Source: Thermoplasmata archaeon (lineage in GTDB: Archaea; Thermoplasmatota; Thermoplasmata; Thermoplasmatales; Thermoplasmataceae). Taken from it: DNA of 32,044 bases. Under the pieces are notes generated by a model. The model was not told the origin of the DNA and ran no database searches. It worked only from the letters and a program-made list of their open reading frames with translations. How positions within the stretch are numbered: position 1 is the stretch's first letter; every line of letters begins with the position of its first letter. The stretch is taken from contig JAKATN010000012.1 in assembly GCA_021818715.1 (NCBI GenBank), forward strand, positions 1,326 through 33,369, given 5' to 3'. Below are positions 8,584 to 32,043 of this stretch, in pieces. The translations under genes were made by a program, and so were the position numbers.

Positions 8584-9663
8584 ATGGAGTACAAACACAT
8601 CTTCGATTATGCCAGAGAGGTTGACACAATACTGATAGTCAATGGAGGAGAAAATTCCATAGACAAGAACTTTTTCTATCTGACGCAGGCGAAAAGCGGC
8701 GTATTTGAGGGATCGATGCTCATAGTGAGCCCTTCAAGAATCAAGATACTCACATCCATACTGGAAGAGGAGGCGGCCAGGGATACTGGACTTGAGGTAA
8801 TAACCGCCAGCAAGAAGAAGGATATAGAAAGGATTCTTCAGGCAGAACTCAAGAACGTGGATGTTGTCGGTCTGAACTATGATTCCATAACCCTCAGCGA
8901 CTACACCGATCTGAGCAAGATGATCCCCGACAAGAGGTTCGTGGACGTATCGGTCTCAATCCAGGAAGCAAGAAGAATAAAGACTCCTGAAGAGCTCAAA
9001 AAAATACGCGAGGCGGCGAAGATTGCCAGTGAATCTTTTGAATCAGTCCTTGGCAGGATAAAGGAAGGGATCACCGAGACGGAGCTAGCCTCAGAGCTCG
9101 TTTACCAGATGCTGAAACATGGAGCATCTGAACCTTCATTCAGCAGCATTGTTGCCTTCGGATCAAACAGTTCCCTCCCGCATTACAGCCCAGGCAACCG
9201 TAAACTGAAAAGAAATGAATTTGTACTCATGGATTTCGGCGCTCTTTTCGAAAGGTACTGCTCGGATGTCACCAGGACAGTTGTATTCGGAAAGGCGTCG
9301 GAAGAGCAGAGGGATGTCTATTCTACGGTGAAAAATGCCCAGGAGAAATCCATGAACGCCATCAGGGAAAACGTTAACGGAAAGGACATAGACAAAATAG
9401 CAAGGGACGTTATTGATTCCACGAAATACAAGGACAGGTTCATCCATTCCCTGGGGCACGGGCTGGGCATGGACGTGCATGATCACCCTGCACTGAGCCC
9501 TGGCGTAGACCTTCCGTTGAAGGAGAACATGGTTGTGACGGTGGAGCCAGGAATTTACATTCCCAAGTTCGGTGGAGTAAGGATAGAGGATGATGTCGTG
9601 GTGAAGAAGAACGGCTATGAAAGAATCACGACAGCGCCAAGGGACCTGATAGAAATCTCATGA
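8584..9663 (+). CDS. pepQ: Xaa-Pro dipeptidase / aminopeptidase (M24 family)
   Basis: Cytosolic metallopeptidase that removes an N-terminal residue before proline; family M24B. The first ~130 residues form the creatinase-like N-terminal domain. The catalytic pita-bread domain follows and carries all five metal ligands: Asp in LMDFGALF, Asp in CSDVTRT, His in SLGHGLGMDVHDHP, Glu in VTVEPGIYIP and Glu in VRIEDDVVV. The length (359 aa) is normal. The ATG at 8584 is preferred to a TTG two codons earlier; an A/T-rich CTAATAATAACC about 26 bp upstream is a plausible TATA box. The stop overlaps the priL start (ATGA), so the two are probably cotranscribed. Whether the in vivo substrate is dipeptides or longer peptides cannot be read from sequence. 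Confidence 0.92.
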   Translation: MEYKHIFDYAREVDTILIVNGGENSIDKNFFYLTQAKSGVFEGSMLIVSPSRIKILTSILEEEAARDTGLEVITASKKKDIERILQAELKNVDVVGLNYDSITLSDYTDLSKMIPDKRFVDVSVSIQEARRIKTPEELKKIREAAKIASESFESVLGRIKEGITETELASELVYQMLKHGASEPSFSSIVAFGSNSSLPHYSPGNRKLKRNEFVLMDFGALFERYCSDVTRTVVFGKASEEQRDVYSTVKNAQEKSMNAIRENVNGKDIDKIARDVIDSTKYKDRFIHSLGHGLGMDVHDHPALSPGVDLPLKENMVVTVEPGIYIPKFGGVRIEDDVVVKKNGYERITTAPRDLIEIS

Positions 9664-29076: not shown

Positions 29077-29709
29077 GTGCTGGAGATTGAGATTGAATTC
29101 AAGGTCCCGGTGAGCTGGATTGATGATCTGGTAAAAAGCCATTCAGCCAGAATAAAGGTCAGGGATATCAGAAAAACCAGCAAAGGGACAATGGACCTGA
29201 TAGAAGTCTTCTTCCCGGAAGGCAACGTCAAAGCAATGGCCGAGGATATTGAAAAATACCTGCCTGAGGAGAACAGTTCCCTGAAAGCATTTGATGATAA
29301 TCACGCCACAGCGATTGTTGACGCCGGGGATTGCCCTATATGCAGAAACATGCAGAACTGGGATCTGTTCCTGACTGAAGCTTTCACAGAAGGTAACGGG
29401 GACATGCTTATGCGCCTGCTTGTTCCTGACGATGCAACGGCAGTGAGCTTCCTGAAGAGGCTCGAAGATGACGGAGTCAAATTCAGGCTGGTTAAGAAAA
29501 GGAATCTCACAAGGAAGAGCGATCTTACCGCAAGACAGGAGTTTGTGGTGAGGACTGCCTTTGATCTGGGATTCTTCGATTATCCAAAGAAGGTCAACCT
29601 GGAGGGTCTTTCAGAAAGGTTGAATGTATCATTCGTCACTCTATCTGAAATACTCAGGAGGGCAGAAAAAAACATCATATCCTCGTACTTCAGGCAAAAA
29701 GGGGAATGA
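29077..29709 (+). CDS. Bat-type transcriptional regulator with HTH_10 domain
   Basis: 210 aa. The C-terminal ~60 residues are the bacterio-opsin-activator HTH domain: LTARQEFVVRTAFDLGFFDY, then VNLEGLSERLNVSFVTLSEI and LRRAEKNII, the standard LTxRQxExLxxAxxxGYFDxPR...LAxxLGIS..T layout. The N-terminal ~150 residues are an alpha/beta sensing domain of unclear ligand with one close Cys pair (CPIC, about residues 87-90) that could be redox- or metal-sensitive. In haloarchaea Bat-like proteins respond to light or oxygen; here the hemerythrin and NADH dehydrogenase genes are neighbours, so an oxygen/redox role is a guess. It is followed convergently by the hemerythrin gene. Confidence 0.85.
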   Translation: MLEIEIEFKVPVSWIDDLVKSHSARIKVRDIRKTSKGTMDLIEVFFPEGNVKAMAEDIEKYLPEENSSLKAFDDNHATAIVDAGDCPICRNMQNWDLFLTEAFTEGNGDMLMRLLVPDDATAVSFLKRLEDDGVKFRLVKKRNLTRKSDLTARQEFVVRTAFDLGFFDYPKKVNLEGLSERLNVSFVTLSEILRRAEKNIISSYFRQKGE

Positions 29710-29721
29710 ATTTAAGGTGCC

Positions 29722-30204
29722 TCACCTGACCTGCCGGCCAGCTGTTGAATTTTTTTCCAGCGCAAGAAGCTCGCACGCAGCCTCAGCGGCAGGATATAGA
29801 ATTTCCTCCTCAAGCTCCACATGATGCAGCAGGCTCCTCCCAATTTCTGCAGCTTTTTGGCTTGAACCGGATTCCTTAGCCGATGCAACTTTCTCAATAA
29901 TCTGGGCCATTTCCCGGTGCTCAGATATCATCTCTTCGGCATCGCCAATGAACTTCCTTGACGCTGATTCCAGATCATGAAACCCAACTTCACTCCGGGC
30001 AGTACTCCGCGATTTGAGGTAAGCCAATAGCGGTATCACGGTCTCCTCCTCCTTATCCAGGTGGTAGCTGAATATGGAAAGAATCTCACCGTATAGCTCT
30101 GCGACCTTCCCTTTGCCTGCCGCAATCTCCGACATCTGTTCCAACAGTTCGCTATGTTCCCTGTCAAGGAAACCTTCCATTTCTGTCATAAAATTGTAAT
30201 CCAT
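29722..30204 (-). CDS. Hemerythrin-like HHE-domain protein (complete ligand set)
   Basis: 160-aa four-helix protein with the expected di-iron ligands: His17 (REHSEL), His48 and Glu52 (SYHLDKEEE), His96 (ISEHREM), His127/128 and Glu132 (LLHHVELEEE). Such proteins bind O2 or handle NO/iron in the cytosol. The length is normal and there is no signal peptide. The ATG at 30204 lies about 27 bp from the centre of a dyad (30222-30241), whose core could be its TATA position. It is divergent from a second hemerythrin-like gene and convergent with the HTH_10 regulator. Confidence 0.85.
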   Translation of the reverse strand: MDYNFMTEMEGFLDREHSELLEQMSEIAAGKGKVAELYGEILSIFSYHLDKEEETVIPLLAYLKSRSTARSEVGFHDLESASRKFIGDAEEMISEHREMAQIIEKVASAKESGSSQKAAEIGRSLLHHVELEEEILYPAAEAACELLALEKNSTAGRQVR

Positions 30205-30221
30205 TCCGCTTATTCTGGGTT

Positions 30222-30241
30222 ATCCCGAAATACTTCGGGAT
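30222..30241. promoter_or_regulatory. Dyad 1, ATCCC-N10-GGGAT (perfect 8-bp arms)
   Basis: ATCCCGAA-ATAC-TTCGGGAT is a perfect inverted repeat whose centre (30231.5) is about 27 bp upstream of the minus-strand hemerythrin start, where a TATA box of a leaderless gene would sit. It shares half-sites and spacing with dyad 2. As RNA it would also make a stable hairpin in a longer 5' leader of the minus-strand gene. Confidence 0.68.
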
Positions 30242-30254
30242 GCAGAAACAAGAC

Positions 30255-30274
30255 ATCCCTATATTTTAAGGGAT
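30255..30274. promoter_or_regulatory. Dyad 2, ATCCC-N10-GGGAT around a TATA box
   Basis: ATCCCT-ATATTTTA-AGGGAT; the N10 core TATATTTTAA is a good TATA box, about 45 bp upstream of the plus-strand hemerythrin start (a leader of about 20 nt). Half-sites and 10-bp gap equal those of dyad 1; centres are 33 bp apart, about three helical turns. Confidence 0.68.
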
Positions 30275-30309
30275 TACTGACATGCCATGTTTCACGCTTC
30301 TAGTTTTGT

Positions 30310-30729
30310 ATGGTGAAGATGATCAGCAGGGCAGAAGAAGAATTTACAGTTTTTGCTGAGAAGTACAACAATAGCTGGCAGAACGAGGGGCGCGCTTTCC
30401 TGGAACTGCAGGACCAGGTGCTTGAGCATTCGATTCATGAGGATGAAATTGTGGCGCCGCTTGCGGAAAATTTAGGAAATTCTCTTACGGGAAAAACAGG
30501 AGTGATTTCGGGGCGAGGGGGATCGACGTGCGAATTTTACACCCGGGATCGGTGCCCGGATAATGATCACGAGGAACTGAGGCGTGGGCTTTCCAGTTAC
30601 ACAGGGAATGCTCAAGCATACCGTTTCCGGATGATCATCAGCAGGCATGCGAAATTTGAAGGGATGATGCTGAAACTGGCACCAGCGTACTCTGTAATGA
30701 TCCCCTCTGACAAATTTGTAAAGGAGTGA
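30310..30729 (+). CDS. Divergent hemerythrin-like (HHE) protein
   Basis: 139 aa, helical. Three of the four ligand helices can be matched: LEHSIHEDEIVAPLAENL (His40/His43 with following Glu), NDHEELRRGL (His87) and ISRHAKFEGMMLKLAP (His113, Glu117). The His expected in the first helix is absent, so iron binding may be altered. A Gly-rich, Cys-containing loop (about residues 60-82; Cys74 and Cys82) replaces the usual short connection. Start at the ATG 30310 (or the ATG three codons later). It is followed by the NADH dehydrogenase gene after 6 bp, in an operon. A paralogue lies divergently across the shared promoter. Confidence 0.72.
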   Translation: MVKMISRAEEEFTVFAEKYNNSWQNEGRAFLELQDQVLEHSIHEDEIVAPLAENLGNSLTGKTGVISGRGGSTCEFYTRDRCPDNDHEELRRGLSSYTGNAQAYRFRMIISRHAKFEGMMLKLAPAYSVMIPSDKFVKE

Positions 30730-30735
30730 CATGCT

Positions 30736-32043
30736 ATGGGGACTGAAAACACCTGGATGAAGAATGGCAAAGAATCAAGGCGCATAAAGGTGGTTGTGCT
30801 TGGTGCAGGATTTGCTGGGTCATCATTTATAAACTCATTCAAAGGTAAGCTAAAGGGTAAGGACAGGCGCCGCATCGATCTTACTGTAATTGACGGCAAT
30901 TCCTATCATCTGTTCGCCCCGCTTCTATACCAGGTGGCTACTGGCAGCGTCCGCGACCGGCACATCTCCGCCCCACTCAATACTACAGCGGAAAGGAAAA
31001 AATTCAGGTTCATTAAATCGACAGTACTTCGGGTTTCCCCAGAGAGGAACCAGGTTATAACAACGACAGGAGTTGTTGGTTACGATTACCTGGTTGTCGC
31101 ACTTGGCGCTGAAAATAACAACTTCGGTATACCAGGGGTGGAGGAATATTCGGTTCCCCTGAAGAGTCTGCAAGATGGCAGGACGATAAGGGAAAGGCTG
31201 TTTAACTCGCTTATCCCTGAGAAGAATGCGCTTGGTAATGGTGTTGGGGTCCTTTCGCCGGTGAACTTTGTGATTGTTGGTGGCGGGGCTACAGGTGTGG
31301 AACTGGCCGCCTCCATGTCAGATCAGGTCATGGCGTTCTCAAGAAAGGCAGGCGTTAGGCATGACGGCATCAACATCTTTCTTCTGGAAGCTCAGGATCG
31401 CCTGGTAAGGGATGCGCCTCAGGAAGTATCTGATAGGCTGATGTCTGATATGGCACGCAGGGGGGTCAAGGTTAGACTCAATACCAGGATCATAAGGTTA
31501 GGGAGAAATGGCGTCGAACTTCAGAATGGAGGCTTCATAGAAACTGAGAATGTCTTCTGGGCGGCAGGAGTCAGGAATGGAAAAATAATAACTGAATTCG
31601 GCGGGAATCACGTTGAAAAGGTTCATGGGAGGATAGTAGTGGACAATTTCCTTAGAGTACCAGCGTTCAGCAATGTGTTCGTGCTTGGGGACAACGCACT
31701 GGCCAAAGACGCGACCAGCAATAACCCGGTCCCACAGACGGCTGCTGCTGCAGTGCAGGAGGGAAAATTCGCCGGGAAGCATCTGGCCTCGATCATAGGC
31801 GAAAAGATGAACTCTCATGGTTTCAGATACAGGGATACCGGATTAATGGTTGCCACCGGATCATACAGTGCAGTTTGCATGTTTCCAGGAGGGATCATCC
31901 TTTCAGGTTTTGGGGGCTGGATCATTTGGCACGCAGTGCACCTGTTTAAGTTGGATACGGTGAGAAACAAGATATCGGTAATGGCAGACTGGGCACTTCG
32001 GGATCGATTGATGCGAAATATGGCGGGACCCGGGTTGAACTGA
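30736..32043 (+). CDS. ndh: Type II NADH dehydrogenase (NDH-2-like flavoprotein)
   Basis: 435-aa FAD-dependent pyridine nucleotide oxidoreductase that probably passes electrons from NADH to quinone at the inner face of the membrane without pumping protons. The FAD site VVVLGAGFAGSSF near residue 20, NDH-2-type YHLFAPLLYQVATGSV, YDYLVVALGAENNNFGIPG, the NADH site FVIVGGGATGVELAASM, VFWAAGV, the second FAD motif NVFVLGDNALA and PQTAAAAVQEG are in order. The C-terminus (GGIILSGFGGWIIWHAVHL) is hydrophobic/amphipathic and likely docks to the membrane, as in NDH-2. A good ribosome binding site (AAGGAGTGA) overlaps the preceding stop. Quinone as acceptor is inferred; sulfide:quinone reductase is less likely because no SQR Cys pair is seen. 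It ends one base before the window end. Confidence 0.9.
   Translation: MGTENTWMKNGKESRRIKVVVLGAGFAGSSFINSFKGKLKGKDRRRIDLTVIDGNSYHLFAPLLYQVATGSVRDRHISAPLNTTAERKKFRFIKSTVLRVSPERNQVITTTGVVGYDYLVVALGAENNNFGIPGVEEYSVPLKSLQDGRTIRERLFNSLIPEKNALGNGVGVLSPVNFVIVGGGATGVELAASMSDQVMAFSRKAGVRHDGINIFLLEAQDRLVRDAPQEVSDRLMSDMARRGVKVRLNTRIIRLGRNGVELQNGGFIETENVFWAAGVRNGKIITEFGGNHVEKVHGRIVVDNFLRVPAFSNVFVLGDNALAKDATSNNPVPQTAAAAVQEGKFAGKHLASIIGEKMNSHGFRYRDTGLMVATGSYSAVCMFPGGIILSGFGGWIIWHAVHLFKLDTVRNKISVMADWALRDRLMRNMAGPGLN

Follow-up and report, generated by a model that had tools for sequence, protein, structure and literature searches.

The window analysed here, a 32,044-nucleotide stretch of a contig assigned to a Thermoplasmata archaeon, contains two divergently oriented hemerythrin-type genes, an NADH dehydrogenase gene, a predicted regulator and two 20-bp palindromes (dyads) in the divergent intergenic region:

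29077..29709, plus strand: HTH_10 regulator, candidate dyad binder (PF04967, E = 2.6e-17), tail-to-tail with the minus-strand hemerythrin gene
29722..30189, minus strand: hemerythrin (HHE) gene (PF01814, E = 2.3e-13); start moved from 30204 to 30189 on the basis of homologue starts and the fixed 32-nt gap
30198..30200, minus strand: predicted promoter-proximal (-10) element, ATT here versus AAT in the consensus, with T at gap+24
30211..30218, minus strand: predicted TATA-like element (CAGAATAA), from dyad-anchored conservation at gap+8/+9
30222..30241, minus strand: dyad 1, 20-bp palindrome ATCCCGAAATACTTCGGGAT, exact match, ending 32 nt before ATG 30189; predicted operator of the minus-strand hemerythrin gene
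30255..30274, plus strand: dyad 2, ATCCCTATATTTTAAGGGAT, exact match; predicted operator of the plus-strand hemerythrin-like/NDH-2 operon
30278..30285, plus strand: predicted TATA-like element (TGACATGC), its gap position matching the conserved A/T element of relatives
30319..30729, plus strand: second, divergent hemerythrin-like gene, first in an operon with NDH-2; start probably 30319 (or 30310)
30736..32043, plus strand: NDH-2-type NADH dehydrogenase, in operon with the hemerythrin-like gene (PF07992, E = 1.2e-41; NDH2_C, 5e-6)

Membership of the hemerythrin HHE family is indicated by the PF01814 match for the minus-strand gene and by aligned ligand residues for the plus-strand gene. The latter gave no Pfam match on its own; one of its homologues (26–30% identical) matches PF01814, and alignment with hemerythrin homologues shows the HxxxE / H / HxxxE ligand residues to be kept. 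The pair formed by this hemerythrin-like gene (class HRL2) and NDH-2 also occurs in relatives G079, G080, G044, G114 and G045. Both divergent genes likely start downstream of the first ATGs of their frames, at ATG 30189 and ATG 30319; dyad 2 ends 44 nt before the latter and 35 nt before ATG 30310. The intergenic distance of 105 bp reported in the initial annotation holds for the starts as first given and becomes 129 bp with the corrected ones, because the starts of both genes were revised.

Re-reading of the sequence reproduced exactly the two ATCCC-N10-GGGAT dyads described in that annotation, with centres 33 bp apart. A pattern search of the whole window returned these two exact matches only, the chance expectation from base composition being 0.03 for the window and 9e-5 for 105 bp of sequence. 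In the organism's own genome, 1.39 Mb in 44 contigs, the exact pattern occurs at eight places and its reversed control at none; the six remaining places all lie within long open reading frames, which makes the pair in the window unusual for being intergenic. Rfam gave no match at the dyads.

Conservation of the operator across the order

Protein searches covered 117 genomes of the order, and the relatives obtained were only 27–47% identical. A dyad was found directly upstream of almost every hemerythrin gene in clusters bearing an HTH_10 gene. Spacing of the half-sites was examined in 21 larger regions (20 from relatives plus the window) and further loci, with genes classed by homology, giving 123 distinct upstream regions. 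The pattern CCC-Nk-GGG peaks sharply at k = 10, with 50 of the 123 regions against 1–12 for other spacings and 0 for GGG-N10-CCC; this result is independent of the window, since the window contributes few of these regions. The proposal that the dyads are a conserved regulator site is thereby borne out in the orthologous promoters of relatives, and the operator is conserved with a fixed spacing, a fixed position and a shared gene set. The dyads in the window are local copies of this predicted regulatory operator.

Aligned promoters yielded the operator consensus RTCCC(T/G)AA-N4-TT(A/C)GGGAY. In the underlying set of 47 promoters the CCC and GGG triplets are invariant by selection, whereas inclusion did not depend mainly on the flanking AT, the core TAA..TTA or the elements further downstream (the discovery scan required a flank score of at least 2/4 and an A+T-rich core). 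Searching the order with a form of the motif that has an A/T core returned no more hits than the reversed control did, and genome-wide the bare TCCC-N10-GGGA pattern carried no information. Such a lack of excess is to be expected of a regulon as small as three to six promoters, so that position and neighbouring genes are needed as context. The initial annotation had proposed a search of this genome and its relatives: conservation was found upstream of orthologous genes, but the motif alone is not enriched genome-wide. Our literature searches, with most subscription papers outside their coverage, found no description of this operator.

Position relative to promoter and start codon

In the hemerythrin, DUF2249, NDH-2 and 157-aa protein classes the dyad ends 32–33 nt before the start codon, and among relatives 15 hemerythrin genes have the site at this distance. 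In the HRL2 and POX (pyruvate-oxidase-like) classes the dyad mostly ends 42–44 nt before the start, a distance compatible with a short leader that contains a GGTAAT- or GTGA-like sequence. When the 47 promoters, belonging to unrelated genes, were aligned on the dyad, A or T was found at gap+9 in all 47, A at gap+8 in 35 and T at gap+24 in 38; every dyad is followed, 4–11 nt downstream, by a conserved A/T element. These positions fit a predicted TATA-like element near -25, a promoter-proximal AAT near -10 and transcription starting at gap+33. TATA-like words likewise peak at -28 from the ATG in 201 control promoters, suggesting that leaderless starts are common here.

A start at gap+33 would place the dyad centre near -43, upstream of BRE/TATA. 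The arrangement is that of an archaeal upstream activating site, namely a palindrome at a fixed distance just upstream of the predicted BRE/TATA (gap of 32–33 nt, A/T at gap+8/+9), and archaeal activators usually bind upstream of BRE/TATA (PMC5937170). Each dyad is predicted to serve one promoter, dyad 1 that of the minus-strand hemerythrin gene and dyad 2 that of the plus-strand hemerythrin-like/NDH-2 operon. At the TATA position, the dyad-bearing promoters do not differ in A/T content from the control promoters, and the idea of a specially weak, activator-dependent TATA box was dropped for that reason.

Target genes

Genes preceded by the dyad encode hemerythrins, the hemerythrin-like/NDH-2 operon, a DUF2249-cupin protein and a pyruvate-oxidase-like TPP enzyme, and in some genomes also a 156-aa membrane protein, a 157-aa protein and NDH-2 alone. 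NnrS adjoins DUF2249 in the clusters, and nitrate reductase subunits (NarG/NarI) lie within the clusters of several relatives. NnrS and hemerythrin genes are members of bacterial NO/nitrite regulons (PMC1274295), and the haloarchaeal denitrification gene set includes DUF2249 (PMC11218638). The 156-aa protein, which has no Pfam match (L144 2309–2776) and looks membrane-bound, adjoins DUF2249 in most clusters (14 of the 21 loci).

A search for a dyad combined with a start codon in 20 genomes was noisy, yet recovered a target in the organism's own genome: a pyruvate-oxidase-like gene on contig C44 (L183, 482–2155), with the dyad ATCCCTAAAAACATAGGGAC at 419–438, 43 nt before the ATG. This gene is a predicted third member of the regulon, located outside the window. 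DUF2249 and NnrS were not found in this genome, which is 91% complete. NarG/NarI, DUF2249 and NnrS, which would connect the regulon with nitrogen oxides, lie in the clusters of relatives, the organism itself having only the hemerythrins, NDH-2 and the pyruvate-oxidase-like gene.

The dyad is missing from the pyruvate-oxidase-like promoters of G085 and G086 (both without HTH_10) and of G089 (L200, L201, L203); in roughly its position they have a TTACATGTAAA-type palindrome, which suggests that another regulator may have replaced the dyad system there.

The HTH_10 regulator as candidate binder

The regulator scores 62.8 bits against PF04967, compared with a curated cut-off of 23.1. Its orthologues are 57–61% identical, and it is the most widely shared gene of the clusters (18 of 21 loci). 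Among genomes with an HTH_10 orthologue, 17 of 18 contain dyads, compared with none of the nine that carry target homologues and lack the orthologue (Fisher 2e-6, a value that ignores the kinship of the genomes). The exceptional genome, G104, possesses the orthologue and only degenerate sites (CCTAAATATTTAGG). Conversely, G114 and G064 have dyads and an HTH_10 protein only 40% identical, its gene being broken in G114. In G101 (L192, around 8745–9311) an HTH_10 homologue (44%) is interrupted by five stop codons.

The helix RLNVSYVTLAEILRRAEKNI and the residues C86 and C89 are nearly or fully invariant, and these two, forming a CxxC pair, are the only invariant cysteines in 17 orthologues. An AlphaFold model of the regulator was poor (pLDDT 67.5, about 50 in the HTH part), and its PDB matches, including Thermoplasma Ta1207, were set aside with it.

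The same operator in other archaeal phyla

The strongest test of this link reached beyond the order, using 36 loci chosen by HTH_10 alignment alone; 22 of them, from Nitrososphaerota, Sulfolobales, Desulfurococcales and others, hold distant homologues (26–43% identity). Scored with the matrix derived from the order, the 22 distant loci contain 18 intergenic sites of at least 14 bits, compared with 0 for the reversed matrix, 0.3 for shuffled matrices and 1 in control loci. Targets preceded by the operator include hemerythrin (gap 31) and DUF2249 (gap 35–36), and in Sulfolobales HTH_10 and a divergently oriented 7Fe/zinc-ferredoxin-like gene flank a strong dyad (L254 5756–5775, L256 7739–7758). 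In Nitrososphaerales, a dyad is found 51–56 nt before the ATG of a conserved gene, MWINDAERV..., probably encoding a winged-helix protein (L245 9270, L246 8340, L248 9291, L259 3261).

By these matrix scores, the predicted operator and the HTH_10 regulator clearly travel together. The initial annotation had named the nearby HTH_10 protein as the obvious candidate to bind the dyads; this candidacy is now strongly favoured, the gene being conserved with the site within the order and in other phyla, and we strongly infer that it is the binding protein. More tentatively, at a little under even odds, we propose that a single HTH_10/TCCC(T/G)AA-N4-TT(A/C)GGGA pair has come, through inheritance or transfer, to be common to Thermoplasmatota, Nitrososphaerota and Sulfolobales, and may control what in archaea corresponds to the NO/O2-stress regulons of bacteria, comprising hemerythrins, DUF2249, NnrS, 7Fe ferredoxin and pyruvate oxidase.

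Proposed mechanism and alternatives

Our preferred reading, to which we assign a probability of roughly 0.7, is that the dyads are upstream activating sites, bound by a dimer of the adjacent HTH_10 regulator, of a small hemerythrin/respiratory regulon that probably responds to NO, nitrogen oxides or low oxygen. An HTH_10 dimer would bind each ATCCC(T/G)AA-N4-TT(A/C)GGGAT palindrome, the centre of which would lie some 43 bp before the transcription start, and would aid the assembly of TFB/TBP on the BRE/TATA just downstream. The regulon would combine diiron (hemerythrin) and respiratory functions. Its signal, probably nitric oxide, nitrogen oxides or low oxygen, might be sensed through the invariant CxxC pair. 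From gene content only, we infer that the signal is a nitrogen oxide or oxygen; activation is preferred with moderate confidence, because of the dyad position just upstream of BRE/TATA.

The same operator and regulator might instead act in repression, with HTH_10 dimers blocking TFB at the BRE until a signal releases them. With its downstream half-site ending at about -33, the dyad may reach into the BRE; promoters with an ordinary A/T content at the TATA position might work alone, and bacterial NO regulons of the NsrR type are under repressor control (PMC1274295). However, every gene class has the centre fixed near -43 and upstream of TATA, which is a typical activator position (PMC5937170), and NarO, a known HTH_10 regulator of N-oxide respiration, is reported to activate the nar operon, though it also represses dms (PMC10062603). 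We therefore regard repression as unlikely, if worth keeping in mind.

A regulator other than HTH_10 could bind the dyads, HTH_10 merely belonging to the same gene island; its own promoter has no dyad in this order, arguing against autoregulation, and G114 has dyads without an intact HTH_10 protein closely related to this one. This is improbable, since no further regulator was found among the genes shared by the clusters and the site follows HTH_10 homologues across phyla with different neighbours, as at the Sulfolobales ferredoxin site.

The initial annotation placed the TATA boxes in the dyad cores, with two repressor dimers, three helical turns apart, covering both. The core of dyad 2 (TATATTTTAA) does resemble a TATA box, but most targets have cores that are not TATA-like and vary (GAAAAGCTTT, AACATATTAC, TAAAAATACA), the conserved A/T element is outside the dyad, on its downstream side, and start codons are fixed at 32–33 nt. 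A repressor over TATA is at odds with a site just upstream of BRE/TATA, the archaeal activator position (PMC5937170). The 33-bp pairing is not kept either: G034 and G039 also have divergent promoters with two dyads, but spaced by 56 bp, leaving the 33 bp without meaning, and most targets have one dyad. This arrangement now appears highly improbable. Finally, a chance or non-regulatory repeat, such as an RNA hairpin or terminator (dyad 1 could fold into an 8-bp stem with a 4-nt loop), is negligible given the spacing test, the dyad-aligned promoters and the cross-phylum matrix scan, as conserved spacing and position in 47 promoters indicate a DNA operator upstream of the start, which transcripts would exclude.

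Significance and comparison with known systems

To our knowledge, few archaeal regulators have a defined operator. The analysis supplies HTH_10, a large and mostly uncharacterised family, with a precisely defined candidate binding site and a mode of action, likewise predicted, together with a predicted target list for some 20 genomes, including cultured Ferroplasma acidarmanus. For acid-loving archaea, the low pH makes nitrite and NO particularly toxic, and the system offers a route to how these organisms sense nitrogen oxides or oxygen.

The Pfam HTH_10 domain of the regulator is, we assume, associated with Bat/NarO proteins. In the Bat/bop system of Halobacterium, an HTH_10-type regulator likewise acts upstream of TATA; Bat is set apart by its PAS/GAF sensor domains and a non-palindromic UAS. 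NarO has the cysteine motif CXnCXCX7C, which the regulator in the window lacks, only C86/C89 being invariant in 17 orthologues. The NarO system of Haloferax volcanii, like the motif CGAAYATDKTYG of haloarchaeal denitrification genes, resembles ours in having denitrification and DUF2249 genes under one palindromic promoter motif with bacterioopsin-activator-like regulators nearby (PMC10062603, PMC11218638). However, the operator is a 20-bp TCCC-N10-GGGA palindrome here and a 12-bp CGAACATGTTCG there, the NarO-type CGAAC-N4-GTTCG is not matched by RTCCC(T/G)AA-N4-TT(A/C)GGGAY, and the target set and lineage differ. In Hfx. mediterranei, NarO is absent and the protein binding the motif is unidentified (PMC10062603, PMC11218638).

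TFB-RF1 of Pyrococcus furiosus shares with our system a palindrome at a conserved distance just upstream of BRE/TATA, kept in orthologous promoters (PMC5937170). It recruits TFB, which the mode proposed here would match; its operator (TCTGAANTTCAGA) is unrelated, and activation is proven for TFB-RF1 and predicted here. The bacterial NO/nitrite regulons of NsrR, NnrR, DNR and HcpR have similar targets, namely NnrS, hemerythrin-like genes and nitrate reductase (PMC1274295), whereas their regulators and operators are unrelated and the promoters described here are archaeal.
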